Part shown: one piece after another, positions 29,633-54,791 of the stretch
Position numbering within the stretch: the stretch's first letter is position 1
How the letters are laid out: every line of letters starts with the position of its first letter
Assembly (NCBI RefSeq): GCF_006088715.1
Contig: NZ_CP030771.1
Coordinates: 3,224,001 to 3,288,000 of the forward strand
DNA from: Streptomyces sp. YIM 121038
GTDB taxonomy: Bacteria > Actinomycetota > Actinomycetes > Streptomycetales > Streptomycetaceae
DNA length: 64,000 bases
Direction: 5' to 3'
Translations under genes and position numbers: made by a program
The notes under the pieces: generated by a model
Seen by the model: the letters and a program-made list of their open reading frames with translations, nothing else
Databases searched by the model: none
What the model was told of the DNA's origin: nothing

Positions 29633-30991
29633 TCAGGCCGGAGACCTGCTGAACCCCCGACTGCTCGGCACCAGGGCCGCCGCCGCCGGGGCCGCGAAGC
29701 ACAGGGCCGCGCAGGCCGCGAGGACCGGGCGGGGGCCGAAGGTGTCGATGGCCGGGGCGATCAGGGCGAGGCCCGCGGGGGCGAGGCCGTAGGACAGCAT
29801 GAAGTCCAGGGACGACACCCGCGCCAGCTTGTCGGGCGCGACCTCGCGCTGGGTGGCGGTGAACCACGGCACGTTGAACAGTTCGATGCCCACCCCGGCC
29901 ACCGCGTACGCCGCCACGACGACCGTCCAGTGCACCGGCAGGACGAGGCTCAGCGGCGCGAAGCCGTAGAGGGCGAGGCCCGCGAGGGCGGCCCGGCCCT
30001 GGGCGCGCGGCCGCCAGCGGGCGACGACCAGGGCGCCGCCGAGCGCCCCGAGGGTGTACGCGGTCATGGCGGCGGCCAGGACCACCCCGGTGCCGTACTT
30101 GTCGCGGCTGACCAGCGGCAGCGCCACGCCGGTCGCCGAGTAGCCGGTGGCTATGACGGTGGTCAGCGCCCCGAGTCCGGCCAGGAACCAGGGGTGGCGC
30201 CGGGCCTCGCGCAGCCCTTCGCCGAACTCCGCGAGGAAGGAGGGGCGTTCACCGGGCGGGCCCGCGTCCGCCGCGGCCGCCGTGTCCGCCCGGCCGGGGC
30301 CCGGCACCAGCGCCGCCACCAGCCACAGCACGCCGATCCCGAGCAGCAGCGCCCAGGTGTCGAGGACGACGGCGAGCAGCGCGGTGAGCGCGGGCCCGGT
30401 GAGCGTGGTGACCCGTACGGAGAGGGTCATCGCGGCGTTGGCGGCCTGGCGCCGGTCCTCGTCGACGACCTCGGCGGTCAGCGCCTGGAAGGCGGGGCGG
30501 CACGCGCCCTGCCCGGCGCCCGCGACCGCGGCGGCCACGAGCGTCAGCGCGAGCGAGCGGCCGAGGCCGAGCGCGAGGAGGGGCGTCGCGGCCGCGGCGG
30601 CGAGGCCCGACCAGAGCACCACGCCGCGCCGCGAGTACCGGTCGGCGAGGACGCCGCCGACGGCGACCGCGACGAGGAAGCCCGCGGTGCGGGCGGCGAG
30701 CAGCAGGCCGAGGGCGGCCGCGCCGATGGTGCGGTCGAGCACGGCGAGCCCGAGGACGAAGGGCAGCGCCCAGGTGGCGAGCCCGGACGCGGTGGTGCCC
30801 GCCCAGAGCCGCAGGAAGGCGGGTTCCCGCAGGACGCTCCGCGCGGGAGCCACGCCCCCTTCCGCGCCCCGTTCCACGCCCCCTCCCGTGCCCCGTTCCG
30901 CGCCCCGTTCCGCGCCCTCTTCCGCGCTTCCTACCGCGCTCCCTTCCGCACCCTCGGCGGGCCCGGCCGCTTGCGTTGGCGTGGTCGCCAC
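29633..30991 (-). CDS. MFS exporter (EntS-like), candidate metallophore exporter
   Basis: A 452-residue major facilitator protein with about twelve helices starting at residue 50 (LREPAFLRLWAGTTASGLATWALPFVLG). The helix-2/3 loop carries GGVLADRYSRRGVV, the MFS motif A of the enterobactin-exporter-like group, and the helix-11 region has ELFNVPWFTATQREVAPDKLARVSS, typical of this family. The N-terminal 45 residues are low-complexity Glu/Gly/Arg repeats (GAERGAERG) encoded by short tandem DNA repeats, so the true start could be further downstream, near residue 48. It is divergent from the metal-ABC operon across a 212-bp region with a Zur-like box. Export of the ligand made by that operon is the natural inference, not shown by sequence alone. 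Confidence 0.75.
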   Translation of the reverse strand: MATTPTQAAGPAEGAEGSAVGSAEEGAERGAERGTGGGVERGAEGGVAPARSVLREPAFLRLWAGTTASGLATWALPFVLGLAVLDRTIGAAALGLLLAARTAGFLVAVAVGGVLADRYSRRGVVLWSGLAAAAATPLLALGLGRSLALTLVAAAVAGAGQGACRPAFQALTAEVVDEDRRQAANAAMTLSVRVTTLTGPALTALLAVVLDTWALLLGIGVLWLVAALVPGPGRADTAAAADAGPPGERPSFLAEFGEGLREARRHPWFLAGLGALTTVIATGYSATGVALPLVSRDKYGTGVVLAAAMTAYTLGALGGALVVARWRPRAQGRAALAGLALYGFAPLSLVLPVHWTVVVAAYAVAGVGIELFNVPWFTATQREVAPDKLARVSSLDFMLSYGLAPAGLALIAPAIDTFGPRPVLAACAALCFAAPAAAALVPSSRGFSRSPA

Positions 30992-31143: not shown

Positions 31144-31164
31144 TAATGAAAATGATTGCCATTA
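31144..31164. promoter_or_regulatory. Zur (zinc uptake regulator) operator
   Basis: A 21-bp imperfect palindrome with outer arms TAATG and CATTA and core AAAATGATTGC; eight of ten base pairs are symmetrical. It matches the actinobacterial Zur consensus as I recall it (TGAAAAT-N-ATTTTCA extended by TA/AT arms) at all but two positions. A TACAGT at 31163–31168 could be the −10 box, so bound repressor would block transcription of the importer operon. Confidence 0.75.
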
Positions 31165-31203
31165 CAGTACAGTGGTCGCGTCCCCATCCACACCGGAGGT
31201 CCC

Positions 31204-32220
31204 ATGCGTCCGCGTCACCCCGCCCGCCTCGGCACCGTCGCCCTCGCCCTGTCCCTCACGGCCGTCGGCTGCGCCTCCGGCGGCAGCGACCCGTCGGACG
31301 ACGGGGCGGCCGCCGCCCACAGGACGACCGTCACGAGCTGCGGGAAGAAGCTGGAGCTCGACGGTCCGCCGAAGCGCGCCGTCGCCCTCGACCAGTCCTC
31401 CACCGAGGTGCTCCTCGCGCTCGGGCTCCAGGGCCGCATGGCCGGCACGTCCAACCTCAAGACGAAGATCGCGCCGGAGTACAAGGCGGCGTACGACGAG
31501 GTGAAGGTGGTCAGCCCGAAGATCCTCACGAGCGAGCAGCTGCGGGCCGCGGCGCCCGACCTCGCCGTCGGCGGCTTCGCGGACTACTTCACCAAGGACC
31601 GCGTCGGCACCCGCGAGGAGCTGGCCCGCCTCGGACTGCCGTCGTTCGTGAGCGCCGTGGACTGCCCGCCGCGGGGCACCGACCGCACCCCCTTCGAGCT
31701 GCTCTTCAAGGACTACGCCGACCTCGGCAAGGTCTTCGGCGTCGAGAAGCGCGCCGAGAAGCTCGTGCGGGAGCAGCGCGCCGCGCTCGCCGGGGCCGCG
31801 AAGACGAAGAAGCGGGTCAAGGGCGAGCCGACCGTGGTGTGGCTGTACTCGGTGTACGGCGACACGCCGTACGTGGCGGGCGGCTCCGCGATACCCAGCG
31901 AGATGAGCCGCGTGGTCGGCGCGCGGAACGCCTTCGACGACGTCGACGAGGACTGGCCGCAGGTCAGCTGGGAGGAAGTCGCCAAGCGCAAGCCGGACTT
32001 CATCGTGCTCGGCGATCTGTCGGAGCGCGGCAAGCCGGGCGACAGTGCCGCGGACAAGCTCGCCGCGGTCCGTGCCGACCCGGTGATGGCGAAGCTGCCC
32101 GCCGTGCGGGAGAAGCGCTTCATCGAGATACCCGGCACGGAGATGGACCCCTCGGTCCGCGCGGTCGGCGCCCTGCCGCGGCTCGTCACGGGGATGAAGG
32201 ACCTCGGGTATGTCCGCTAG
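31204..32220 (+). CDS. substrate-binding lipoprotein of a FecCD-type metal/metallophore ABC importer
   Basis: A 338-residue lipoprotein. The signal peptide ends in LTAVGC, a lipobox whose Cys is at about residue 23. The mature part has the periplasmic-binding-protein type-2/TroA-like layout of siderophore and cobalamin binders: CGKKLELDGPPKRAVALDQSSTEVLLALG opens lobe 1, a long linking helix lies near the middle, and VAKRKPDFIVLGDLSE plus PAVREKRFIEIPG form lobe 2. GGAGG four bases before ATG 31204 supports the start. It is the first gene of a seven-gene operon directly behind a Zur box and overlaps the permease gene by 11 bases. Zinc or a zinc–ligand complex is the inferred cargo; iron-siderophore cannot be excluded from the protein alone. 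Confidence 0.8.
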   Translation: MRPRHPARLGTVALALSLTAVGCASGGSDPSDDGAAAAHRTTVTSCGKKLELDGPPKRAVALDQSSTEVLLALGLQGRMAGTSNLKTKIAPEYKAAYDEVKVVSPKILTSEQLRAAAPDLAVGGFADYFTKDRVGTREELARLGLPSFVSAVDCPPRGTDRTPFELLFKDYADLGKVFGVEKRAEKLVREQRAALAGAAKTKKRVKGEPTVVWLYSVYGDTPYVAGGSAIPSEMSRVVGARNAFDDVDEDWPQVSWEEVAKRKPDFIVLGDLSERGKPGDSAADKLAAVRADPVMAKLPAVREKRFIEIPGTEMDPSVRAVGALPRLVTGMKDLGYVR

Positions 32221-33376
32221 CCCGGGTCCGGTGGGCGTCGTCGGCCCGCCCGCGCCGCCGGGTCCAGGCGGCGGCGCGGTGGACCTGCTGCACCCGTCGG
32301 CCCGGACGGCGGCGCGCTCCCCCGGGGCCGCCGCCCCCTCCCCCGCCGCCCGGAACGTGCTGCGGGGGCCGGGCGCGCGGGCCGGGCTCTTCCTCCTGGC
32401 CGCGCTCGCCCTCGTCGCGTCCGCCGCCGTGTCCGTGCGCATCGGCACCACCGACGTCGGCTACGGGGACATCGCCCGCAGCGCGGGCTACCACCTGGGG
32501 CTCGGCGCCGAGCCCCCGGCGCCGCTCGTGGACTCGCTGATCTGGGAACTCAGGGTGCCGCGCGTGCTGCTCGCGGCCCTGGTCGGCGCCACCCTCGCGG
32601 TGTGCGGCGCCGCGCTCCAGGCGGTCACGCGCAACGCCCTCGCCGACCCCTATCTCCTGGGCATCTCCTCGGGCGCCTCGACCGGCGCGGTCACCGTCGT
32701 GGTGCTCGGCGTCGGGTCCGCCTCGCTCGGTGTGACGGGCGGCGCGTTCGTGGGCGCCATGGTGTCGTTCGCCCTGCTGATGCTGCTGCTGCGGCGCGGC
32801 GGCCTGGACTCGGTGCGGATCGTCCTGACGGGCGTCGTGGTGTCGCAGCTGTTCACGGCCCTCACCTCGCTCGTCCTGATGGCGTCCGGCGACGCGGAGA
32901 TGATCCGGGCGATCACGCAGTGGCTGCTCGGCTCGATGGCGCCCGCGCGCTGGGACGCGGTGGCCGTGACGGCCGTCGTGACGGCGGTGGGCCTGCTCGT
33001 GCTCTGGCTCAACTCGGCGGCCCTCGACGGGTTCTCCTTCGGCGCGGACGCGGCCTCGTCGCTCGGCGTCGACGTGCGCACCACGCGCTGGGTGCTCCTC
33101 GTCGTGACGTCCCTGATGACGTCGGTGGCCGTCGCCTCCGTGGGCGCGATCGGCTTCGTCGGCCTGATCGTGCCGCACGGCGTACGGTTCCTCGTCGGCC
33201 CCCGGCACCGGGTGCTGCTTCCGCTGTCGGCCCTGGTCGGCGCGGTGTTCCTGGTGTGGACGGACGCGCTCGCGCGGGTCGCGTTCACCCCGCAGGAGGT
33301 GCCCGTCGGCGTGTTCACCGCGCTGCTCGGCGTGCCGCTGTTCCTGCTCGTCCTGCGCGGGCGGGGTGAGCTGTGA
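32210..33376 (+). CDS. FecCD/BtuC-family ABC permease
   Basis: A 388-residue integral membrane permease. After a Pro/Ala-rich cytoplasmic lead of about 55 residues come roughly ten helices with the family signatures LRVPRVLLAALVGATLAVCGAALQAVTRNALADPYLLGISSGAS in the first half and SVGAIGFVGLIVPHGVRFLVGPRHRVLLPLS near the C-terminus, the loop that contacts the ATPase. ATG 32210 lies inside the upstream gene; the downstream ATPase overlaps by GTGA. The long N-terminal extension is unusual for the family but reads as coding. As in BtuC, it would form a homodimer that moves the chelate across the membrane. Confidence 0.85.
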   Translation: MSASPGPVGVVGPPAPPGPGGGAVDLLHPSARTAARSPGAAAPSPAARNVLRGPGARAGLFLLAALALVASAAVSVRIGTTDVGYGDIARSAGYHLGLGAEPPAPLVDSLIWELRVPRVLLAALVGATLAVCGAALQAVTRNALADPYLLGISSGASTGAVTVVVLGVGSASLGVTGGAFVGAMVSFALLMLLLRRGGLDSVRIVLTGVVVSQLFTALTSLVLMASGDAEMIRAITQWLLGSMAPARWDAVAVTAVVTAVGLLVLWLNSAALDGFSFGADAASSLGVDVRTTRWVLLVVTSLMTSVAVASVGAIGFVGLIVPHGVRFLVGPRHRVLLPLSALVGAVFLVWTDALARVAFTPQEVPVGVFTALLGVPLFLLVLRGRGEL

Positions 33377-34170
33377 GGATCACCGCGCAGAACGTGAGCT
33401 GGGCGGTCGCGGGCCGGGCCGTCGTCGACGGCGTGTCCCTGGACGTCGCCCCGGGCGAGACCGTCGGCCTGATCGGGCCCAACGGCTCCGGCAAGTCCTC
33501 CCTGTTGCGGTGCCTGGCCGGGCTGCGGGCGCCCACCGAGGGCGTCGTCCGCTACGACGGCGAGCCGATCGGGCCCTGGGGCGCGCGGCGCGTCGCCCGG
33601 CGCGTCGCCTTCGTGGAGCAGGCCGCCGACACCGACAGCGAGCTGCGGGTCGTGGACGTGGTGGGCCTCGGCCGGACGCCGTTCGGGGACCGGTGGCGCG
33701 GGCCCGGCGCGCACGACCGGGCCGTCGTCGAGGCCGCCCTGGCGCGGCTCGGCCTGACCGGGCTGCGCGAGCGCGCCTGGAAGGCCCTGTCCGGCGGCGA
33801 GCGCCAGCGCGCCCACATCGCCCGCGCGCTCGCCCAGCAGCCGTACGCGATCCTCCTCGACGAGCCGACCAACCACCTCGACGTCAAGCACCAGTTGGAG
33901 CTGCTCGCCCTGCTCGCGGGCACCGACCAGACCGTCCTGGTCGCGCTGCACGACCTGTCGCTCGCCGCCCGCCACTGCGACCGGCTGCTCCTGCTGCACG
34001 GCGGACGCCTCGTCGCCGCCGGGCCGCCGAAGGACGTCCTGACGCCCGAGCTGCTCGCGGAGGTCTTCGAGGTCGACGCCGAGCCGGGCCCCGACGCCCT
34101 CGGCCATCTCGCGATCAGCTACCGCGGCCCCCTCCCTCCCCCCGACTCCCCTACGGAAAAGGACAGTTGA
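33373..34170 (+). CDS. ABC transporter ATPase, FepC-like
   Basis: A 265-residue ATPase of the siderophore/cobalamin import group. Walker A is GPNGSGKSS (near residue 37), the signature is ALSGGERQRAHIARALAQQP, Walker B is ILLDEPTNHLD and the switch His lies in VLVALHDLSLAARHCDRLLLL. The end, DVLTPELLAEVFEVDAE, is the usual FepC C-terminus. GTG 33373 overlaps the permease stop by four bases, and the gene's TGA shares one base with the ATG of the methyltransferase (TGATG). This links the importer to the biosynthetic genes in one transcript. Confidence 0.9.
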   Translation: MRITAQNVSWAVAGRAVVDGVSLDVAPGETVGLIGPNGSGKSSLLRCLAGLRAPTEGVVRYDGEPIGPWGARRVARRVAFVEQAADTDSELRVVDVVGLGRTPFGDRWRGPGAHDRAVVEAALARLGLTGLRERAWKALSGGERQRAHIARALAQQPYAILLDEPTNHLDVKHQLELLALLAGTDQTVLVALHDLSLAARHCDRLLLLHGGRLVAAGPPKDVLTPELLAEVFEVDAEPGPDALGHLAISYRGPLPPPDSPTEKDS

Positions 34171-34907
34171 TGAACACCCGAGCCACCGGCCCCGACCTGC
34201 TGCGGCAGCTGCCGCCGCCCCTGCCCGCCGAGCGGATCGTCGCGCTCAACCAGCCGAAGGCGGACCTGCACACCACGCGCGCGTACGAGTGGAACGGCTG
34301 GAGCTTCGACGTGCCGCCCGGCGTGTTCCTGCCCGGCGAGACCAGCCGGATGGTGCACGAGCGGATCCTCGACGGCCGCATAGAGACCCGCGGCCTGCGC
34401 TACGGCGCCATGGGGGCCGGGCTCGGCGTGGAGGCCGTGGCCGCCGGGGTGCGCGGGGCGCGCGAGATCTACGCGATGGACGTGCACGCCACCAGCGTCG
34501 CCACCGCGGCCCGGCACTACGCCCGTCTGGTCGGCCCCCGGGAGGGCACGGCGTTCCTGCCCGCCGCAGGCGACCTCTTCGACGGGCTCCCGCCGGGCGC
34601 GCGGCTCGACGTCGTCACCTTCAACCCGCCCGCCGTCAGCCGGCCGGTGAGCGACGACCCCGACGTCGTGCGCAACACCTGCGTCGGCTCGGGCCTGCTC
34701 GCGCGGTTCTTCACCCAGCTCGCCGAGCGGGACCTGCTCGCGCCCGACGGCGTGGCGTACGTGATCGCGTCGAACACCGCCGATCTGCGCCGCATCGTCC
34801 AGGACGCCCAGGAGCGGGGCTTCGCGCCACGGGTCGACTCGGTGCGCGACTGGCACGACGGCGTCCTCACCTTCCTGTTCGCCTTCACCCGCGGAGGCCG
34901 GGCATGA
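34170..34907 (+). CDS. class I methyltransferase with NPP motif (candidate N-methyltransferase)
   Basis: A 245-residue protein with a Rossmann SAM-binding core: LRYGAMGAGLGVEAVAAGVRG is motif I and IYAMDVHATSVATAARHYA motif II. The catalytic strand reads LDVVTFNPPAVSRPV; NPP at this place is the mark of methyltransferases acting on nitrogen (HemK/PrmC and DNA-amine types). The N-terminal lead EWNGWSFDVPPGVFLPGETSRMV also resembles PrmC-like substrate-positioning segments. It follows the ATPase gene with a one-base overlap and is coupled to the DUF364 gene by ATGA. Methylation of an amino-acid-derived ligand is inferred from context. A PrmC function is unlikely because that gene normally sits beside prfA. 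Confidence 0.7.
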   Translation: MNTRATGPDLLRQLPPPLPAERIVALNQPKADLHTTRAYEWNGWSFDVPPGVFLPGETSRMVHERILDGRIETRGLRYGAMGAGLGVEAVAAGVRGAREIYAMDVHATSVATAARHYARLVGPREGTAFLPAAGDLFDGLPPGARLDVVTFNPPAVSRPVSDDPDVVRNTCVGSGLLARFFTQLAERDLLAPDGVAYVIASNTADLRRIVQDAQERGFAPRVDSVRDWHDGVLTFLFAFTRGGRA

Positions 34908-35734
34908 CGCGCCCCGGGAACGTCCAGGAACTCCTCGGCGCCGCCCTCGCGGGCGAACTGGGGCCCGATCCGGCCGGTCTCACGGCCACCAGCGTGTTCT
35001 GGATCCACCACGGCACGCGGCTCGCCGGGGGCGACGTCACCTACCTCAACCAGTACGTCCTCGTCCGCGTCGGCGGGGCCTTCGGCGGCTGCGCCTTCGA
35101 GGCGGGCGAGATCGACCCGGCCATCTGCCGCGAGGCGTCGGGGAGTTCGCTCGGCACACTCCTGAAGGACGCGCCGACGCCGCTGCGCACGGCCGCCCTC
35201 GACGCCTATCTGGCCTGTGTCGCGCCGCACCGGCGAACGCCCGGGGCCGAGCCGGTGACGCTGCCCGCCGGGCCGCCGGAGGTGCGCGCGGTGGCCCGGG
35301 ACACGGCCATCGCGGGCCTGCTCGACATCGAGCCGGGCGCCAGGGTCGCGCTGATCGGCGTCGTCAACCCGCTCGTCGCGGCGATCCGCGAGCGCGGCGG
35401 CGACCCGCTGCCCTGCGACTTCAACCTGCGGACGACCCAGTGGGGCGACCCCGTGAGCCGCGACATGCACGAGGTCCTCGACGCCGCGGACGCCGTCGTC
35501 GCCACCGGCATGACCCTGTCCAACGGCAGCTTCGACACGATCCTCGCCCGCTGCCGCGAGCGGGGCGTCCCGCTGGTCGTGTACGCGCAGTCCGGCAGCG
35601 CGGTCGCGCGGGCCTTCCTGGGCGCGGGGGTCACCGCGCTGTCCGCGGAGCCGTTCCCGTTCTCGCAGTTCAGCGCCGAGCCGACGGTCCTGTACCGGTA
35701 CCGGGCCGCGCCGGGCGACGAGGACGGGGCGTGA
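34904..35734 (+). CDS. DUF4213/DUF364 (putative heavy-metal chelation) protein
   Basis: A 276-residue protein. The N-terminal third (VFWIHHGTRLAGGDVTYLNQYVLVRVGGAFGGCAFEAGE) matches the DUF4213 cap, and the rest (DIEPGARVALIGVVNPLVAAIRE…EVLDAADAVVATGMTLSNGSFDTIL) is the Rossmann-like DUF364 domain. Structural studies of this family suggested a metal-chelating or small-ligand site, but no reaction is known. The His pair (WIHHG) and Cys residues (GGCAFE) in the cap could bind metal. It is tied by four-base overlaps to the methyltransferase before it and the kinase after it. Position suggests it handles or modifies the metallophore or the metal itself. Confidence 0.7.
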   Translation: MTRPGNVQELLGAALAGELGPDPAGLTATSVFWIHHGTRLAGGDVTYLNQYVLVRVGGAFGGCAFEAGEIDPAICREASGSSLGTLLKDAPTPLRTAALDAYLACVAPHRRTPGAEPVTLPAGPPEVRAVARDTAIAGLLDIEPGARVALIGVVNPLVAAIRERGGDPLPCDFNLRTTQWGDPVSRDMHEVLDAADAVVATGMTLSNGSFDTILARCRERGVPLVVYAQSGSAVARAFLGAGVTALSAEPFPFSQFSAEPTVLYRYRAAPGDEDGA

Positions 35735-36744
35735 GGGCCGGGACCGGGCGGGCCGCCTGTCACCACGGCGAGATCCTCCAGGGCGTGTTCCTTGACGGGC
35801 GCGGGCGGCGCGTCGCGGGCCTGGTCACGCTGCCGCTCGCCGGGCTCGGCACCCGCGCGGAGTTCACCCGCCGCCCGGGCACCGCGGCAGTGACGGTGGT
35901 CCCCGCCGACCGCACCAAGGCGCTGCGCGCGGCGACGTACGCCCTCGCCGAGTGCGCCGCGCACTGCCGGAGGCCGCTGGGCGGCGGCGAGTTGCGGCTC
36001 GTCGGCGACGTCCCGGTGGGGCTCGGCATGGGTTCGTCCAGCAGCGACGTGATCGCGGCCGTGCGCGCGGTCGCCGACGCGTTCGGCGTGCGCCTCGCGC
36101 CTGCGGCGGTCGCGCGCCTCGCGGTGCGCGCCGAGCGGGCCTCGGACCCGCTGATGCTGGACGGCCGCGCGCTGCTGTTCGCCCAGCGCGAGGGCCGCGT
36201 CCTGGAGGACCTCGGCGCGGCCCTGCCCCCGGCGGTCGTCGTCGGCTGCGCGCTCGGCGGCGGCCGGTCGGTGGACACCCTCGCGCTGCCCGCCCCCGCC
36301 CCGGCGGACGACACCGACGTACCGGCCTACGAGCGGCTGCGGGGACTGCTGCGCCAGGCCGTCGCCGCCGCCGACCCCGCGCTGCTCGGCCACGTCGCCA
36401 CCGAGAGCGCCCGGCTGCGCCAGCGGGTCCTGCCGCACGCGGAGTTCACCGCGCTCACCGGCATCGCGGGCCGCGTCGGCGCGCTCGGCGTACAGGTCGC
36501 GCACAGCGGCAACGTGGCGGGGCTGCTCTTCGACCCCGCCGCGCGGGACCTGCGCGGCCGGGTGCGCGCCTGCCGCCGGGCCCTCGCGGCCACGGGCATC
36601 CCCGCCACCTACACCTTCCACACCACCCCCACCCCGCCTGCGACCCCGAGCGAGGAGTCCCCGCATGGACGAGCACATCGCGGAAGCGATCGGCCGCCCC
36701 GACCTGATACGCGTGGCCGACGGGTTCGTCTGCCTGCGCTTTGA
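35731..36744 (+). CDS. GHMP-family small-molecule kinase, PduX/L-threonine-kinase-like
   Basis: A 337-residue GHMP kinase. The start AACHHGEILQGVFLDGRG aligns with the GTCGEFVQG opening of PduX, the L-threonine kinase of cobamide synthesis. The ATP-binding motif 2 is VGDVPVGLGMGSSSSDVIAAVRA (about residues 90–112). The C-terminal motif 3 is VGALGVQVAHSGNVAGLLF. GTG 35731 overlaps the DUF364 stop. The last 80 bases overlap the PLP gene, and the extra C-terminal tail (PHGRAHRGSDRPPRP) is not family-like, so its end is unusual. The likely reaction is ATP-dependent O-phosphorylation of a hydroxy amino acid (Thr, Ser or homoserine), making a leaving group for the next enzyme. No cobamide genes are nearby. 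Confidence 0.75.
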   Translation: MRAGTGRAACHHGEILQGVFLDGRGRRVAGLVTLPLAGLGTRAEFTRRPGTAAVTVVPADRTKALRAATYALAECAAHCRRPLGGGELRLVGDVPVGLGMGSSSSDVIAAVRAVADAFGVRLAPAAVARLAVRAERASDPLMLDGRALLFAQREGRVLEDLGAALPPAVVVGCALGGGRSVDTLALPAPAPADDTDVPAYERLRGLLRQAVAAADPALLGHVATESARLRQRVLPHAEFTALTGIAGRVGALGVQVAHSGNVAGLLFDPAARDLRGRVRACRRALAATGIPATYTFHTTPTPPATPSEESPHGRAHRGSDRPPRPDTRGRRVRLPAL

Positions 36745-37714
36745 GACCATGAAGGCCGTCTCGGCCCTCGCGGCCGTGCGCCACCTCCTGGACACCGGCG
36801 CGGTGCGCCGCGGCGACACGCTGCTCGACAGTTCGAGCGGCATCTACGCCTACGCGCTTGCGCTCGCCTGCCACCGCTACGGCATGCGCTGCCACATCGT
36901 CGGCTCCACCACCGTCGACCACACCCTGCGCACCCAACTGGCCGTCCTCGGCGCCACCTTGGAGCAGATGCCGCCGAGCGACGACCTGAAGCTCGACCAG
37001 CGGCGGCGCGTCGCGCGCGTCCACGAGATCCTGCGCGAGCACCCCGAGTACTTCTGGATGCGGCAGTACCACGACGACATCCACTACCTCGGCTACGAGG
37101 CGATCGCGGACCGCGTGTGCGCGGAGACCGGCGCCACCGGCGGCCTCACCCTCGTCGGCGGCGTGGGCTCCGGCGCCTCCACCGGCGCCCTCGCCCGCTA
37201 CGCGCGGGCCCGCCGCCCCGACGTGCGCCTGGTCGGCGTGCAGCCCTTCGGCAGCGTCACCTTCGGCAGCGAACACGTCGCCGACCCGGAGATCATCATC
37301 GCCGGGATCGGCAGCTCCATCCCGTTCGCCAACGTCCGCCACCCGGCGTACGACACCCTGCACTGGCTGTCCTTCGACACCGCGCTCGCCGGGAGCGTGG
37401 ACCTGCTGCGGCGGCACGCGGTGTTCGCGGGCCTGTCCACCGGCGCCGGATACGCGGCCGCGCGCTGGGAGCACGCCGCCGACCCCGGCCGCACCACGGT
37501 CTTCGTCGCCGCCGACACCGGCCACCGCTACGTGGACACGGTCTTCGCCCGGCACGCGGAGGCGGCCCCGCTGGCGTCCCTGGCGCCGCGCACGGTCACG
37601 TCCCTGGACGCGCTCGCGCTGCCCTGGTCGCGGATGGAGTGGGCGGGCGCGGCGGCCCCGGCCCCGGCCGCGGCGGGAACAGAGTCCGCGCGGGGGCCGT
37701 TGCAGCGCACATAG
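36665..37714 (+). CDS. cysteine-synthase-like fold-type II PLP enzyme, divergent
   Basis: A 349-residue PLP-dependent enzyme of the beta family. Lys30 in RFETMKAVSALAAV is the expected Schiff-base residue. The substrate-binding loop, usually TSGNTG, is SSGIYAYALALA, so the Asn that hydrogen-bonds PLP O3' is Ile. The phosphate-binding loop is LVGGVGSGASTGALARY, and VGVQPFGSVTFG is the following strand. Family members replace an acetyl or phosphate group on serine/homoserine with a nucleophile; SbnA, for example, uses O-phosphoserine to start 2,3-diaminopropionate synthesis. GAGGAG upstream supports ATG 36665. The pairing with a kinase directly upstream suggests an O-phospho amino-acid substrate. 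The product is unknown. Confidence 0.75.
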   Translation: MDEHIAEAIGRPDLIRVADGFVCLRFETMKAVSALAAVRHLLDTGAVRRGDTLLDSSSGIYAYALALACHRYGMRCHIVGSTTVDHTLRTQLAVLGATLEQMPPSDDLKLDQRRRVARVHEILREHPEYFWMRQYHDDIHYLGYEAIADRVCAETGATGGLTLVGGVGSGASTGALARYARARRPDVRLVGVQPFGSVTFGSEHVADPEIIIAGIGSSIPFANVRHPAYDTLHWLSFDTALAGSVDLLRRHAVFAGLSTGAGYAAARWEHAADPGRTTVFVAADTGHRYVDTVFARHAEAAPLASLAPRTVTSLDALALPWSRMEWAGAAAPAPAAAGTESARGPLQRT

Positions 37715-41528: not shown

Positions 41529-42353
41529 TCACGGGATGTCCGCGCACCGCACGCGCTCCGGCGCACCGTCCGCGGGCTCCCCCGCCGGTTCCCGGTGGTC
41601 GAAGGCGATCAGGGGGTCGCCGGTCAGCGGGTGGTCCAGGACGGCCGCCCGGACGCCGAACACCTCGGCGAGCAGCGCGGGCGTGAGCACCTCGCGCGGC
41701 GGCCCGGACGCGACGACGCGCCCGCCGTGCAGCACGTGCAGGCGGTCGCAGACCGAGGCGGCCGCGTTGAGGTCGTGCAGGGACACGAGCGTGGTGCGCC
41801 CCTTGCCGCGCAGCAGGGCGAGCAGTTCCACCTGGTGGCGCACGTCGAGGTGGTTGGTCGGCTCGTCGAGCACGAGGACGTCGGGGTCCTGGGCGAACGC
41901 GCGGGCCAGCAGGACGCGTTGGCGCTCGCCGCCGGACAGGGCCGCGAAGCGGCGCCCGGCCGCCGCGTCCATGCCGACCTCGGCGAGGGCGCGCGCGACG
42001 GTGTCCCGGTCCGCCGCGTCGTCCCCGGCGAAGGCCCGCTTGTAGGGCGTGCGTCCCATCGCGACGACCTCGCGCACGGTCAGCTCGACGTCCGCGCCGC
42101 GCTCCTGCGGCAGCGCGGCGACGTGCCGGGCCGACCGCGCGGGGGTCAGCTCGCGCAGATCGGTCCCGTCCAGGAGCACCCGGCCCGCCACCGGCCGCAG
42201 ATGGCGGTAGACGGTGCGCAGGAGCGTGGACTTGCCGCTGCCGTTCGGGCCGACGAGCCCGGTGATCTGCCCCTCGGCGGCGACGAGGTGGGCGCCCGCG
42301 ACGACGGTGCGCCCGGCGTAGGCGACGGACAGGTCCTCGATGTCGACGCGCAC
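41529..42353 (-). CDS. ABC transporter ATPase, FepC-like (second importer)
   Basis: A 274-residue ATPase. Walker A is GPNGSGKST, the signature is ALSGGERQRVLLARAFAQDP, Walker B is VLVLDEPTNHLD, and the switch His is in TTLVSLHDLNAAAS. The end (EVLTPALLAEVFGVRAAVLDHP) is typical of siderophore importers. It begins six bases after the permease stop, so it is the third gene of a lipoprotein–permease–ATPase operon transcribed leftwards. It is about as similar in motifs to the ATPase at 33373 as expected for separate family members, not a recent duplicate. Confidence 0.9.
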   Translation of the reverse strand: MRVDIEDLSVAYAGRTVVAGAHLVAAEGQITGLVGPNGSGKSTLLRTVYRHLRPVAGRVLLDGTDLRELTPARSARHVAALPQERGADVELTVREVVAMGRTPYKRAFAGDDAADRDTVARALAEVGMDAAAGRRFAALSGGERQRVLLARAFAQDPDVLVLDEPTNHLDVRHQVELLALLRGKGRTTLVSLHDLNAAASVCDRLHVLHGGRVVASGPPREVLTPALLAEVFGVRAAVLDHPLTGDPLIAFDHREPAGEPADGAPERVRCADIP

Positions 42354-42359
42354 GCGGCC

Positions 42360-43433
42360 TCAACTCCCGTTCTTCAGACGCCGGTCGAGCAGGAACAGCA
42401 TCGCCGGGGCGCCGATCAGCGAGGTGACTACCCCGACGGGCAGCTCCTGCGCGTCCATGGCGGTCCGGCACACGATGTCGACGACGACCATGAGGACGGC
42501 CCCGCCGAGCGCGGACAGCGGCAGCAGCCTGCGGTGGTCGTCGCCCACCAGGAGGCGCAGGGTGTGCGGCACCATCAGGGCCACGAAGGCGATCGCCCCG
42601 GACACCGCCACCAGGGACCCGGTGAGGACGCTCGTCACCACGAACAGCTCCCGGCGCAGCCGTCCCACGCCGACGCCGAGCCCGGCGGCCGTCTCGTCGC
42701 CCATCAGGAGCGCGTTGAGGCCCCGGGCGCGGGCCTGGAGCAGCACCAGGGCGGCCGGGACGGTCACCGCGGGCACGGCGATCAGCTGCCAGGTGGCGCC
42801 GCTCAGGCTGCCCATGAGCCAGAAGAGCACGCTGTGCGTCTGCTGCTCGTCCCCGGCCTGGAGCACGAGGTAGCTGGTGAACCCGGACAGGAACTGGCCG
42901 ATCGCGACCCCGGCGAGCACGAGCCGCAGGGGCGCGAAGCCGCCGCCGCGCCGGGCCACGGCCCACACCAGGGCGAAGGTCACGAGGGCGCCGGCGAAGG
43001 CCGCGCCGGAGAGCCCGAGCGCGCTGCCCGCGCCCGCCCCGAGGACGATCGCGGCGACGGCCCCCAGGGAGGCGCCGCTGGAGACCCCCAGCAGATAGGG
43101 GTCGGCCAGCGGGTTGCGTACGAGCGCCTGCACGGCGGTGCCGACCAGGCCGAGCCCGGCGCCGACGAGCGCGGCGAGCAGGGCGCGCGGCACCCGCAGC
43201 TGCCACACGATCAGGTCGCTGGTCCCGGGCCTGGGCGCGGCGCCGGTCAGCCTGCGCCCGACGACGCCCCACACCTCGCCCGGCGGCAGCGACGTCGAGC
43301 CCCAGGACACGGCCGCGGTGAGGGCCGCGAGGAGCAGCACGGCCAGACCCGCGGCGACGGGCCCGGCGGGCAGGACCCGCGCGTCGCCGTCGGCGCGGCC
43401 CGCCTCCTTCGCCCCGGTGCGCGGGGACGCCAC
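42360..43433 (-). CDS. FecCD-family ABC permease (second importer)
   Basis: A 357-residue permease with about ten helices. Family signatures are LRVPRALLAALVGAGLGLVGTAVQALVRNPLADPYLLGVSSGAS and VAVSGAIAFVALMVPHTLRLLVGDDHRRLLPLSAL. GTG 43433 is used because it lies two bases after the lipoprotein stop; longer frames only re-read that gene. The permease is shorter at the N-terminus than the one at 32210. It pairs with the neighbouring lipoprotein and ATPase. Confidence 0.85.
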   Translation of the reverse strand: MASPRTGAKEAGRADGDARVLPAGPVAAGLAVLLLAALTAAVSWGSTSLPPGEVWGVVGRRLTGAAPRPGTSDLIVWQLRVPRALLAALVGAGLGLVGTAVQALVRNPLADPYLLGVSSGASLGAVAAIVLGAGAGSALGLSGAAFAGALVTFALVWAVARRGGGFAPLRLVLAGVAIGQFLSGFTSYLVLQAGDEQQTHSVLFWLMGSLSGATWQLIAVPAVTVPAALVLLQARARGLNALLMGDETAAGLGVGVGRLRRELFVVTSVLTGSLVAVSGAIAFVALMVPHTLRLLVGDDHRRLLPLSALGGAVLMVVVDIVCRTAMDAQELPVGVVTSLIGAPAMLFLLDRRLKNGS

Positions 43434-43435
43434 GG

Positions 43436-44497
43436 CTAGCGGACCTTGCCCGGGTAGAGGGTCTTGGCGATCCGCACCACGGTGTCGGCGTTGGAGACGC
43501 CCGCGATGGTCGTGGCCTCGGAGCCGACGCGCAGGAACTTCCCCTGCCTCACCGCGCGCAGGCCCTTGGTGGCCGGGTTGTTCTCCAGCCACTTCCTGGC
43601 CTCGTCGAAGGCCTTCTCGTTGGCCGCGGCGCTGCCGCGGTTGCGGACGCCGAGCTGGATCCAGTCCGGGTTCTTGGCGACCACGTCCTCCCAGCCGACC
43701 TGCTTGAACGCGCCGTCGCAGGAAGCGAAGACGTTCCGGGCGCCCGCGAGGTTGATCACCGCGTGGCCGACCTGGCGGTTGCAGACGGCCGTGGGCTGCT
43801 TGGTCCCCGCGTCGTAGTCGAAGAAGAAGTACGTGGGCCGCTTCCGCTCGGGGACGCCGCGCACCGCCGTGCGCACGGCGGCCAGCTTCGTCCGCATGCC
43901 GTCGACGAGTTCCGCCGCCGTGCTCCGGTTGCCGGTGACGGCGCCGAGCGAGGTGATGTCCCGCTCCACGGCGGACAGATCGGTCACGGGGCCCTTCCGG
44001 CCCTGCGCGCAGGCGGTGGACTTCAAGTAGATGTGCTTCATCCCGACGGCCTTGTACTCCTCGGGGGTCGGGGCGTCACCCATGCCGCCGCCCATCCCGC
44101 CCATGGAGGCGAAGGTGTCGATGTACAGCTCGGCCCCGGAGCCGAGCAGCTTCTCCTTGGGGATCACGGAGCGGCTGAGCACCTTCACGTCGTCCGCCCG
44201 CGCCCCGAGCGCGCCCGGCAGCGTGCCCTTGCCGGGCGGGAAGCCGGTGCCGACCACCCGGTCCCCGGCGCCGAGCCTGAGCAGCAGCTCCAGGGCGGCG
44301 GCGTTGCTGGTCACGATCTTCCGGGGCGCGGCGGAGAAGGTGGTCGCGTCGCCCTCGCAGTCGGTGACCCGCACCGGGAACCCCGCGGCCCCGCCGTCCG
44401 CTGCGGAGCCGTCCGTGCCGTCGCCGCCACCGCCGCAGCCCGCGACCAGCAGACCGCCCACCGCGACCGCCACACCCCACCCCGTACGCGTACGCAT
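43436..44497 (-). CDS. substrate-binding lipoprotein of the second FecCD-type importer, with Met-rich loop
   Basis: A 353-residue lipoprotein. The signal peptide ends in LLVAGC (lipobox Cys at about residue 21). The mature protein is a TroA/FepB-like binder: VRVTDCEGDATTFSAAPRKIVTSNAAALELLLRLG opens lobe 1, and VVAKNPDWIQLGVRN and LRAVRQGKFLRVG belong to lobe 2. An unusual loop, MGGMGGGMGDAP, places three Met close together near the expected ligand side. Several extra Cys (STACAQG, TAVCNRQ, FASCDG) are also present. AGGAGAGG supports ATG 44497. No Zur box is seen upstream. The cargo could be a different metal chelate; Met/Cys content hints at a soft metal, which is speculation. Confidence 0.8.
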   Translation of the reverse strand: MRTRTGWGVAVAVGGLLVAGCGGGGDGTDGSAADGGAAGFPVRVTDCEGDATTFSAAPRKIVTSNAAALELLLRLGAGDRVVGTGFPPGKGTLPGALGARADDVKVLSRSVIPKEKLLGSGAELYIDTFASMGGMGGGMGDAPTPEEYKAVGMKHIYLKSTACAQGRKGPVTDLSAVERDITSLGAVTGNRSTAAELVDGMRTKLAAVRTAVRGVPERKRPTYFFFDYDAGTKQPTAVCNRQVGHAVINLAGARNVFASCDGAFKQVGWEDVVAKNPDWIQLGVRNRGSAAANEKAFDEARKWLENNPATKGLRAVRQGKFLRVGSEATTIAGVSNADTVVRIAKTLYPGKVR

Positions 44498-44667
44498 CGC
44501 ACCTCTCCTGGAACCGCTCGAAGGGCCGGGCCTCGCGCACCGGCAGCCCAGGAGTCGCGCCGGGGCCCCGCCGGGTTCCCGCCGCTTGCGCACGGGGGCG
44601 GGCGCATGCGCCGCCGAACCCGCGAAACCGCCGAACTCCCCTTCCCGCACAGGCTCTTCACCCACCC

Positions 44668-45355: not shown

Positions 45356-46690
45356 TCACGCGAAGGCCGCCGTCCAGTCCACGGCGACCCCGTGCACGTA
45401 CGCCTCCGCCAGCGCGGCGAGGAACCGGGCGGCGCCGCCGTCCTCGTTGCGCAGCGTCGCCATGAGCACCGCCGAGCGGCCGAGCTCCTCCACGATGTCC
45501 TGCATGCCGACGGTGAGCACGGGCTGGGCGCTGCACTCGACGAAGACCTCGTGGCCGTCGGCGACCAGGGAGCGCACGGCGTCGTCGAACCTGACCGTCT
45601 GGCGCAGGTTCCGGTACCAGTACTCCGCGTCGAGGCCCTCGGTGTCGACGCGCCGCCCGGTCACCGTCGAGTAGAACGGCACGTCGCCCGCCGCCGGTTC
45701 GACGCTCGCGGCCAGGTCGAGGAGGGTCTCCCGGAGGTCCTCCACGTGCGGCGAGTGCGCGGCGAAGTCCACGCCCGGCACCCGCCAGCGCATCATCCGG
45801 GCGGCCCGCAGCGCGGCGCCGAAGTCGGCCATGGCGGCCGCGTCGCCCGAGACGGTGATGGTCGCCGGGCCGTTCACCGCGGCCACCGAGAGGGCGCCCT
45901 CCCAGTCGGCCAGCATGGTCCGCACCTGGTCGCCCGGGGCGAGCACGGTCAGCATCTCGCCCCGGCCGCGGATCTTCGTCAGGGCCTGGCTGCGCAGCGC
46001 GACGATCCGCGCGGCGTCGTCGAGGGACAGCGCGCCCGCGACGTGCGCCGCGGCGATCTCGCCCTGCGAGTGGCCGACCGCCGCGCCCGGCTCGACGCCG
46101 AAGCGGCGCCACAGCCGGGCCAGGGACACCATCATCGAGAACAGCACCGGCTGCACGACGTCGACCTGGTCCAGCGGCGGGGTGCCCGGCACGCCGCGCA
46201 GCACGTCCTCGAGAGACCAGTTCAGATACGGCGACAGGGCCTTCTCGCAGTCCCGGACCGCCTCGGCGAACACGGGCGAGGCGTCGAGCAGCGCCACCGC
46301 CATGCCGGCCCACTGGGTGCCCTGGCCGGGGAAGACGAACACCGGCCGGGTGCCCGGCCCGGCCTGCCGCGGCGCCCGGCCGCTGATCACGTGCGGCGCG
46401 GGCCGGTCCTCGGCGAGCGCGCGCACCCCGTCGAGCAGTTCGGCGCGGTCGCGCCCGATGACCACGGCCCGGTACTCACCCGCGGCCCCGGCCGCCACGA
46501 GCGACCGGCCCACCTCGGCGAGCAGGCCGGCCTCGGCCTCGGCCGCGCCCGCCGCCGGGCCCGGGGCGAGCCGGGCGAGGAGGCGGCCGGCCTGGGCGCG
46601 CAGTCCCGCCGTGCTGCGCCCGGACAGCACCCACGGCACCGTGCCGGTCACTGCGCCGGTTCGAAGGTCTTGCGTGGCGGGCTTGGTCAC
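45356..46690 (-). CDS. free-standing polyketide acyltransferase (trans-AT)
   Basis: A 444-residue protein consisting of the KS–AT linker (VPWVLSGRSTAGLRAQAGRLL) and a complete AT domain. The oxyanion motif is VFVFPGQGTQWAGM and the nucleophile is in AVGHSQGEIAAAHVAG, where GHSQG is usual for methylmalonyl-specific AT domains. The second specificity motif reads FAAH (VDFAAHSPHV), neither HAFH (malonyl) nor YASH (methylmalonyl). It ends after the post-AT segment (YVHGVAVDW) with no ACP. GTG 46690 has GAGGAG seven bases upstream; GTG 46696 is too close. It is divergent from the regulator. It may load an unusual unit onto the synthase or remove stalled acyl groups. Confidence 0.8.
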   Translation of the reverse strand: MTKPATQDLRTGAVTGTVPWVLSGRSTAGLRAQAGRLLARLAPGPAAGAAEAEAGLLAEVGRSLVAAGAAGEYRAVVIGRDRAELLDGVRALAEDRPAPHVISGRAPRQAGPGTRPVFVFPGQGTQWAGMAVALLDASPVFAEAVRDCEKALSPYLNWSLEDVLRGVPGTPPLDQVDVVQPVLFSMMVSLARLWRRFGVEPGAAVGHSQGEIAAAHVAGALSLDDAARIVALRSQALTKIRGRGEMLTVLAPGDQVRTMLADWEGALSVAAVNGPATITVSGDAAAMADFGAALRAARMMRWRVPGVDFAAHSPHVEDLRETLLDLAASVEPAAGDVPFYSTVTGRRVDTEGLDAEYWYRNLRQTVRFDDAVRSLVADGHEVFVECSAQPVLTVGMQDIVEELGRSAVLMATLRNEDGGAARFLAALAEAYVHGVAVDWTAAFA

Positions 46691-46831
46691 GAGCACTCCT
46701 CGTCACTGCCAATCAGGGGGGACCGGTCGATGGCGGGGCGCGGCGCAGGACCGCTGCCCGTCGGCGGGACCGGGCAGCGCCAAGGCCACTGCCGATCGGT
46801 GGACCGCGAGCGCAAGATATCCCCGAAGCCC

Positions 46832-48350: not shown

Positions 48351-48354
<4 letters not shown>
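46963..48354 (+). CDS. PucR/CdaR-type transcriptional regulator with a TTA codon
   Basis: A 463-residue regulator. Its middle resembles the GGDEF-like domain of the PucR family (about residues 190–340), and it ends with the PucR-type helix-turn-helix: [44 protein letters not shown]. The N-terminal 160 residues are helical and may bind a ligand. TTG 46963 is chosen for GGAGG seven bases upstream. Codon 37 is TTA (47071–47073), the rare Leu codon read by the bldA tRNA in Streptomyces. The first third also has lower GC at third positions than its neighbours. The stop overlaps the PKS1 start by ATGA, so regulator and synthase are co-translated. It is probably the pathway activator. Confidence 0.85.

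Positions 48355-54791
<6,437 letters not shown>

Follow-up and report, generated by a model that had tools for sequence, protein, structure and literature searches.

The window analysed here, a 64,000-nucleotide stretch of the genome of Streptomyces sp. YIM 121038 (NZ_CP030771.1, positions 3,224,001 to 3,288,000), contains a seven-gene operon that probably encodes a zincophore system, one working without non-ribosomal peptide synthetase (NRPS) or NRPS-independent siderophore (NIS) enzymes. A box of the type bound by the zinc regulator Zur precedes the operon, which runs on the plus strand from the substrate-binding lipoprotein, FecCD-type permease and ATPase of an importer to a cassette of four biosynthetic genes, encoding an S-adenosylmethionine (SAM)-dependent methyltransferase-like protein (MT), a DUF364 protein, a GHMP-family kinase and a pyridoxal phosphate (PLP) enzyme. 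Every junction from the lipoprotein to the PLP gene is an overlap, a major facilitator superfamily (MFS) transporter gene is divergent from the operon (Table 1), and both the box and the cassette are conserved across genera. The original prediction for this DNA, made from its letters alone, had described a FecCD importer, a divergent MFS gene, start/stop overlaps and biosynthetic genes in one operon, and the coordinates and Pfam matches bear this out. In a scan of the eight genes, Peripla_BP_2, FecCD, ABC_tran, DUF364, GHMP_kinases_N, PALP and MFS_1 matched above their Pfam cut-offs, and neither NRPS modules nor an IucA/IucC synthetase were found in the operon.

The Zur box has the 15-bp core TGAAAATGATTGCCA at 31147-31161, within the 21-bp form TAATGAAAATGATTGCCATTA at 31144-31164. 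Allowing up to three mismatches to the consensus TGAAAATGATTTTCA, this box, which matches on both strands, is the only place found in the 64-kb window, and 100 shuffles of the window gave no site at that threshold, which confirms that a near-consensus Zur operator lies on the promoter. In the 11.1-Mb genome there are five places with at most two mismatches, while at up to three mismatches the consensus has 24 matches, both strands counted, compared to 6 for the reversed pattern. Another of the five genome sites is carried by the start of an operon consisting of znuA, an ABC transporter ATPase, an ABC-3 permease and a Fur-family gene, and this links the motif to Zur in the present strain. That operon has a box of its own, and its last gene, the Fur-family one, is probably Zur, judging from its position. 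The three further sites with at most two mismatches lie at C1:7323573, C1:9009690 and C2:926534 of this genome (G000). The window box also differs at only one of 11 specified positions from the Zur motif derived by chromatin immunoprecipitation (ChIP) in S. coelicolor (tGaNNatSatNNtCa; PMC5472717).

The genome has five Fur-family matches in all, and a metallophore for nickel, cobalt or iron could therefore be imagined under another Fur-family regulator whose box resembles that of Zur. A related cluster, at locus L108, is adjoined by a Fur-family gene, and its binding protein, the one scanned, has a NikA-type model as its sole NCBIfam match at the threshold used, far below the cut-off (143.5 of 600 bits). 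We consider this alternative unlikely, since the window box fits the S. coelicolor motif and is similar to the box at znuA in this genome. A DmdR-type iron box reached no better than 8 mismatches of 19 positions in the window, and an iron box was thus rejected.

We next turn to the relatives of the operon. When the PLP protein of the window was searched against GTDB genome contigs, 53 loci with a PLP gene were obtained, in Streptomyces, Nocardiopsis, Pseudonocardia, Prauserella and other genera. The operon-head region of each locus was set by homology (22.6 kb in total) and scanned with the S. coelicolor ChIP motif, which revealed a site with at most one mismatch in 32 of the 53 heads and with at most two in 47. 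By comparison, the mean over 300 column-permuted motifs was 0.05 (maximum 5) at one mismatch and 1.15 (maximum 41) at two, and that over 200 shuffles of the head regions was 0.04 (maximum 1) and 0.55 (maximum 4). The co-occurrence of the cassette with Zur boxes, which had been proposed as a check, is thus present. The heads without a site at two mismatches are those of L044, L047, L051, L054, L057 and L066, of which L054 and L057 are cut by contig ends (103 and 35 bases). The sequence of the box varies by branch (TGAAAATGATTGCCA, TGATAATCATTTCCA, TGAAAACGATAATCA). Outside the heads, 15 sites with at most one mismatch were found in 877 kb, several of them before separate FecCD operons (for example L031, L033, L064 and L068), and importers lying apart from the core often have their own Zur-like box (these four loci and L039, L049, L057, L071 and L072).

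Whole-genome searches with the MT at E ≤ 1e-20, own genome included, gave matches in 2 of 396 genomes of a phylum sample, 18 of 295 for the genus, 17 of 394 for the class and 19 of 394 for the family, these samples overlapping one another. In two further sets, of 18 cassette loci and of 26 loci, 13 of these 44 being already within the 53, a site with at most one mismatch occurred anywhere in the locus in 14 and 23 cases, respectively, a whole-locus scan being looser than the head-region test; one of the 23, L159 (MT alone), has its site far from the MT and is not counted as support. A PLP search at E ≤ 1e-50 matched 8 of 158 class genomes and added five new places, four of which were retrieved, a contig-end fragment of G710 being left out. 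Among these, L212 has DUF364, kinase and PLP genes, importers and an MFS gene together with a two-mismatch box, and no Zur box was found in L213, L214 or a second copy in G739 (L215). The predicted linkage of Zur box, importer, exporter and biosynthetic genes therefore holds across genera, in the 53 loci and in the further samples. The presence of the same kind of Zur-type site in relatives from several actinobacterial genera makes it likely that these clusters form an undescribed family of zinc scavengers; none of the open-access literature matches listed describes this cluster, which does not prove that no description exists.

An investigation of gene content showed all four cassette genes in 29 of the 53 loci, DUF364, kinase and PLP genes in 14, MT, DUF364 and PLP genes in 5, and MT and PLP genes in 2; the three others are L057, with kinase and PLP genes and cut by a contig end, L066, with the PLP gene alone, and L074, with the MT and a broken PLP gene. 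What stays constant in the cassette is the PLP gene. An MFS relative is present in 47 of the 53 loci. The importer is of the window type in some loci; in others its place is taken by a FecCD system that is not orthologous, with binding proteins about 30% identical, at times in an operon of its own. Around the PLP gene, genes have been gained and lost in a modular, lineage-structured way, with 15 gene-content changes on a PLP tree of 81 rows compared to a shuffled-label mean of 34.5. In a second Streptomyces clade (clade 2) the order is MT-PLP-DUF364-MFS, with a PhyH-type dioxygenase gene between PLP and DUF364 in eight loci, an Opp-type binding protein upstream in L108-L112 and L166, and a Fur-family gene downstream in L106, L108, L115, L166 and L167. 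In another branch (L105, L169-L171), a divergent kinase gene faces an MT-PLP-DUF364-MFS-FecCD set; L105 also carries, at 504-1586, an octopine/nopaline-type dehydrogenase gene (PF02317) about 7.5 kb from the cassette MT. The MT was rejected as an invariable component of the pathway on account of the 14 loci that keep the other three genes without it, and the same loci lend no support to the earlier proposal of a methylated ligand. In MT-less loci with the importer directly upstream, about 20-460 bp separate the tblastn matches of the ATPase and DUF364.

The PLP enzyme can be aligned with both SbnA and CysK, and SbnA, cysteine synthases and 9k2p are among its best PDB matches, in agreement with the earlier call of a cysteine-synthase-like enzyme. 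Its best NCBIfam model is that of SbnA (TIGR03945), at 132 bits, under the 350-bit equivalog cut-off. In an alignment of 19 rows, Lys30 is invariant at the PLP-lysine position, as is an SSSG motif, which is followed by Ile or Met. Distant PLP relatives lie in several other settings. In L215 (G739:C1, 9290-18838), a two-module NRPS precedes a kinase relative (47%), a PLP relative (36%) and an MFS gene, and in L213 (6786-10298) and L066 (9001-11288) the PLP relative adjoins an L-amino-acid ligase, an ATP-grasp protein with LAL_C2, with an MFS gene also present in L213. In L214, a few kb separate PLP and MFS genes from one for a tetrapyrrole methylase. The position of these relatives beside NRPS and L-amino-acid ligase genes agrees with an enzyme whose product is a non-standard amino acid.

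The kinase has the invariant motifs HHGE.LQG, GLG.GSS and AHSG.VAG (20 rows), and its conserved part ends near residue 300. Of the "PduX-like kinase" that had been proposed, the GHMP-kinase assignment stands and the likeness is to be read at family level only: the family resembles PduX, and GHMP membership is what was computed. For loci without a kinase gene, a kinase acting in trans was rejected for clade 1, where none of the four kinase-less genomes searched (G522, G501, G1020 and G903) has a relative anywhere at E ≤ 1e-5; clade 2 is split five to five, with no relative at this threshold in G401, G502, G1226, G921 and G1164. The clade-1 genomes suggest that primary metabolism may supply the PLP substrate as a phospho-amino acid, for example O-phosphoserine or O-phosphohomoserine.

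Several observations weigh against a zincophore function or limit the counts that favor it. The 53 loci are related and box counts are not independent events, and the loci most closely related to the window (L022-L028, L041 and L069) have a nearly identical box. Since the column-permutation null reached 41 of 53 at two mismatches and no more than 5 at one, the one-mismatch figure is the firm one. Three loci (L044, L047 and L051) with an uncut head and with MT or DUF364 kept have no box at two mismatches, nor does L066. No FecCD or Opp match was found at the thresholds used in 12 of the 53 loci, a few of which are truncated at a contig end, and the MT, kinase and DUF364 genes are each missing in some relatives, so that no single four-gene pathway is fixed. 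Five of ten kinase-less clade-2 genomes (G560, G595, G651, G479 and G1295) have a kinase relative elsewhere. The Ile or Met after SSSG replaces the Asn of SbnA and CysK (SGN to SGI/SGM), and SbnA-like chemistry is thus not assured. Finally, the window's binding protein, permease and ATPase also match F420-0 and corrinoid transporter models of NCBIfam, all below cut-off, and the distant PLP relatives that adjoin NRPS, L-amino-acid ligase or tetrapyrrole methylase genes lack a Zur box.

Some of these points could be accommodated by other functions. The corrinoid transporter matches, the resemblance of the kinase family to PduX and the tetrapyrrole methylase gene a few kb from the outgroup PLP gene in L214 would suit a cofactor or corrinoid salvage pathway in which zinc control is incidental. 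However, no cobamide gene is among the eight scanned, 47 of the 53 loci have an MFS relative, and five relatives have MT, DUF364 and PLP genes without the kinase, making salvage very improbable; cassettes placed in cobamide synthesis, the case that the original prediction had named as contrary to it, did not appear in the gene searches made, in loci that are not all fully annotated. The building-block supply suggested by the non-zinc contexts of L215, L066 and L213 would instead suit an amino-acid antibiotic or signal that is released under Zur control at low zinc, the importer then taking up some other ligand, and in many relatives the importer is indeed non-orthologous or in a separate operon. 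Yet separate importers often have Zur-like boxes of their own and the importer of the window heads the same operon, and we regard this explanation as improbable too. A zinc-scavenging role thus remains the preferred one for the operon.

The DUF364 call of the original prediction was confirmed by the PF04016 match, for which the cut-off is exceeded (Table 1), and by an AlphaFold2 model (pLDDT 90.8) whose best Foldseek matches in the PDB, 3l5o (TM 0.59-0.67) and 3npg, are both solved DUF364 structures. The 3l5o paper links DUF364 gene neighborhoods to metal transport and chelator synthesis; it proposes that a catalytic pocket lies between the two domains and, from the fold and the gene neighborhood, that the protein acts in metal-chelator synthesis (PMC2954201). 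For the MT, the predicted methyltransferase holds as to its class I, HemK-like fold, but no Pfam family matched at E ≤ 0.001 and the NCBIfam HemK-type matches are weak. Its AlphaFold2 model (pLDDT 90.5) is best matched in the PDB by N6AMT1/HemK2 (KMT9) and the carbamoyl N-methyltransferase Asc-Orf2, with PrmC at rank 16; its motif is NPPA, within an invariant FNPPA, and some MT relatives carry PF05175 in database annotation.

One clade-2 locus, L106 (G401:C13, 920-8330), places methionine salvage beside the cassette. Here a class I methyltransferase, MetK, MtnA, MtnB, acireductone dioxygenase (ARD), methylthioadenosine phosphorylase (MTAP) and a FecCD permease are encoded in a row, divergently from the clade-2 core, and two perfect Zur-motif matches lie between the two sets; MetK, MtnA, MtnB and MTAP score above NCBIfam equivalog cut-offs and the dioxygenase above its Pfam cut-off. 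When SAM donates its aminocarboxypropyl group, methylthioadenosine is set free (PMC10491745), and in iron-deficient rice the methionine cycle is induced together with phytosiderophore synthesis (PMC4883707). Because the salvage genes share Zur boxes with the core in this locus, the pathway might conceivably consume SAM by aminocarboxypropyl transfer, releasing methylthioadenosine as in nicotianamine synthesis, although we hold this possibility to be doubtful. A genome-wide co-occurrence of mtnB and the MT was rejected: each is found in 18 of the 295 genus genomes and G401 is the sole overlap, which is about the chance level, so that the salvage link rests on L106. The dispensability of the MT in relatives also weighs against aminocarboxypropyl transfer. 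Furthermore, mtnA-mtnB-ARD operons in L193 (8084-10718) and L194 (7925-10525) have a Zur-like box with one mismatch about 180 bp upstream in genomes without an MT match, indicating that Zur control of salvage genes need not imply this pathway. In L195-L201, the mtn genes of seven other genomes, no such box was found; those of L196 and L198 lie among genes that look arsenic-related from their translations.

Together, these features suggest a scheme in which zinc shortage would switch the operon on and a small amino-acid zinc chelator would be made, exported and re-imported. Zinc-bound Zur, probably the Fur-family protein encoded behind znuA, would cover the promoter and leave it in the absence of zinc. 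The kinase would then phosphorylate an amino acid with a beta- or gamma-hydroxyl group, serine or homoserine being the likeliest, and the PLP enzyme would exchange the phosphate for the amine of a second amino acid, in parallel to SbnA making 2,3-diaminopropionate, to give a ligand with several amines and carboxylates. The MT, dispensable in relatives, and the DUF364 protein may tailor or extend this ligand, which the MFS transporter would export and whose zinc complex the lipoprotein and FecCD importer would return. The enzymatic steps and the identity of the ligand are the least certain parts of the scheme.

Among known metallophores, aminopolycarboxylates of the EDDS/EDHA type, such as the [S,S]-EDDS (ethylenediaminedisuccinate) of Amycolatopsis japonicum, are made with an SbnA-like PLP enzyme and are not known to need NRPS or NIS enzymes, and the EDDS cluster includes an SbnB-type cyclodeaminase and an argininosuccinate-lyase-like gene. 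In contrast, neither of the latter is among the eight genes scanned here, a GHMP kinase, DUF364 and MT being present instead, and the PLP enzyme misses the SbnA equivalog level (132 versus 350 bits). Zur control is a property of the EDDS genes (PMC6103462) and is predicted for the operon as well. The SbnA of staphyloferrin B synthesis is the best NCBIfam model for the PLP enzyme, yet with the low score and the SGN to SGI/SGM change, and SbnB is absent among the eight genes. Coelibactin, whose cluster in S. coelicolor is Zur-repressed and has been called a zincophore cluster (PMC5472717), is a putative non-ribosomal peptide (PMC3430247), unlike the product of an operon with no NRPS among its genes. 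The opine-like zincophores staphylopine and pseudopaline share with the predicted system a few-enzyme amino-acid ligand, an exporter and an ABC importer, which is of the Opp type in clade-2 relatives, and actinobacterial members encode FecCD importers (PMC7438024). However, the nicotianamine-synthase family of CntL (PF03059) had no match in 19 genomes, own included, in a search whose control was positive in 1 of 14, and an opine-like zincophore was rejected for this reason; the CntM opine dehydrogenase (PF10100), absent from the eight genes, also gave none in the 19 genomes, an uninformative search because its control was silent. The expectation of a ligand unlike the common siderophore types is fair with respect to NRPS and NIS products, but antiSMASH 7 already recognizes aminopolycarboxylate and opine-like metallophores, one of these kinds being the nearest.

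If the zincophore assignment is correct, several genera of Actinobacteria hold a zincophore type that rules based on NRPS or NIS genes would likely miss, and the zinc ligand, the function of DUF364 and a divergent SbnA/CysK-like enzyme become testable objects. Small amino-acid chelators of zinc are also of practical interest for the inhibition of metallo-beta-lactamases, as exemplified by aspergillomarasmine A, which blocks these enzymes through zinc sequestration (PMC8319579).

The binding-lipoprotein gene has a GGAGG ribosome-binding site and a lipobox-like ..AVGC, both read from the sequence. A second ABC importer in the window (41529-44665) comprises a Peripla_BP_2 binding protein and an ATPase with further reading frames between; no Zur-like box was found with it, and it was excluded from the analysis. 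Within a few kb of it lie an acyltransferase-domain gene (45356-46696) and a large gene (48351-54791) that resembles a type I polyketide synthase in its translation.

Table 1. Features of the operon and its divergent neighbor in the window. Start codons are our choice, and the kinase frame is open to 36744.
Feature	Position	Strand	Remarks
MFS transporter	29633-30991	-	Divergent from operon; predicted ligand exporter; Pfam MFS_1 109.6 bits
Zur box, 21 bp	31144-31164	+	15-bp core 31147-31161; core ends 42 bp before lipoprotein start codon
Substrate-binding lipoprotein, Peripla_BP_2	31204-32220	+	Pfam 97.8 bits
FecCD-type permease	32210-33376	+	Pfam FecCD 292.5 bits
ABC transporter ATPase	33373-34170	+	Pfam ABC_tran 120.1 bits
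MT, SAM-dependent methyltransferase-like, class I fold	34170-34907	+	Invariant FNPPA
DUF364 protein (PF04016)	34904-35734	+	Predicted enzyme on ligand or precursor; Pfam 45.9 bits, cut-off 23
GHMP-family small-molecule kinase	35731-36744	+	Predicted amino-acid kinase; Pfam GHMP_kinases_N 48 bits
Fold-type II PLP enzyme, SbnA/cysteine-synthase-like	36665-37714	+	Pfam PALP 115.7 bits

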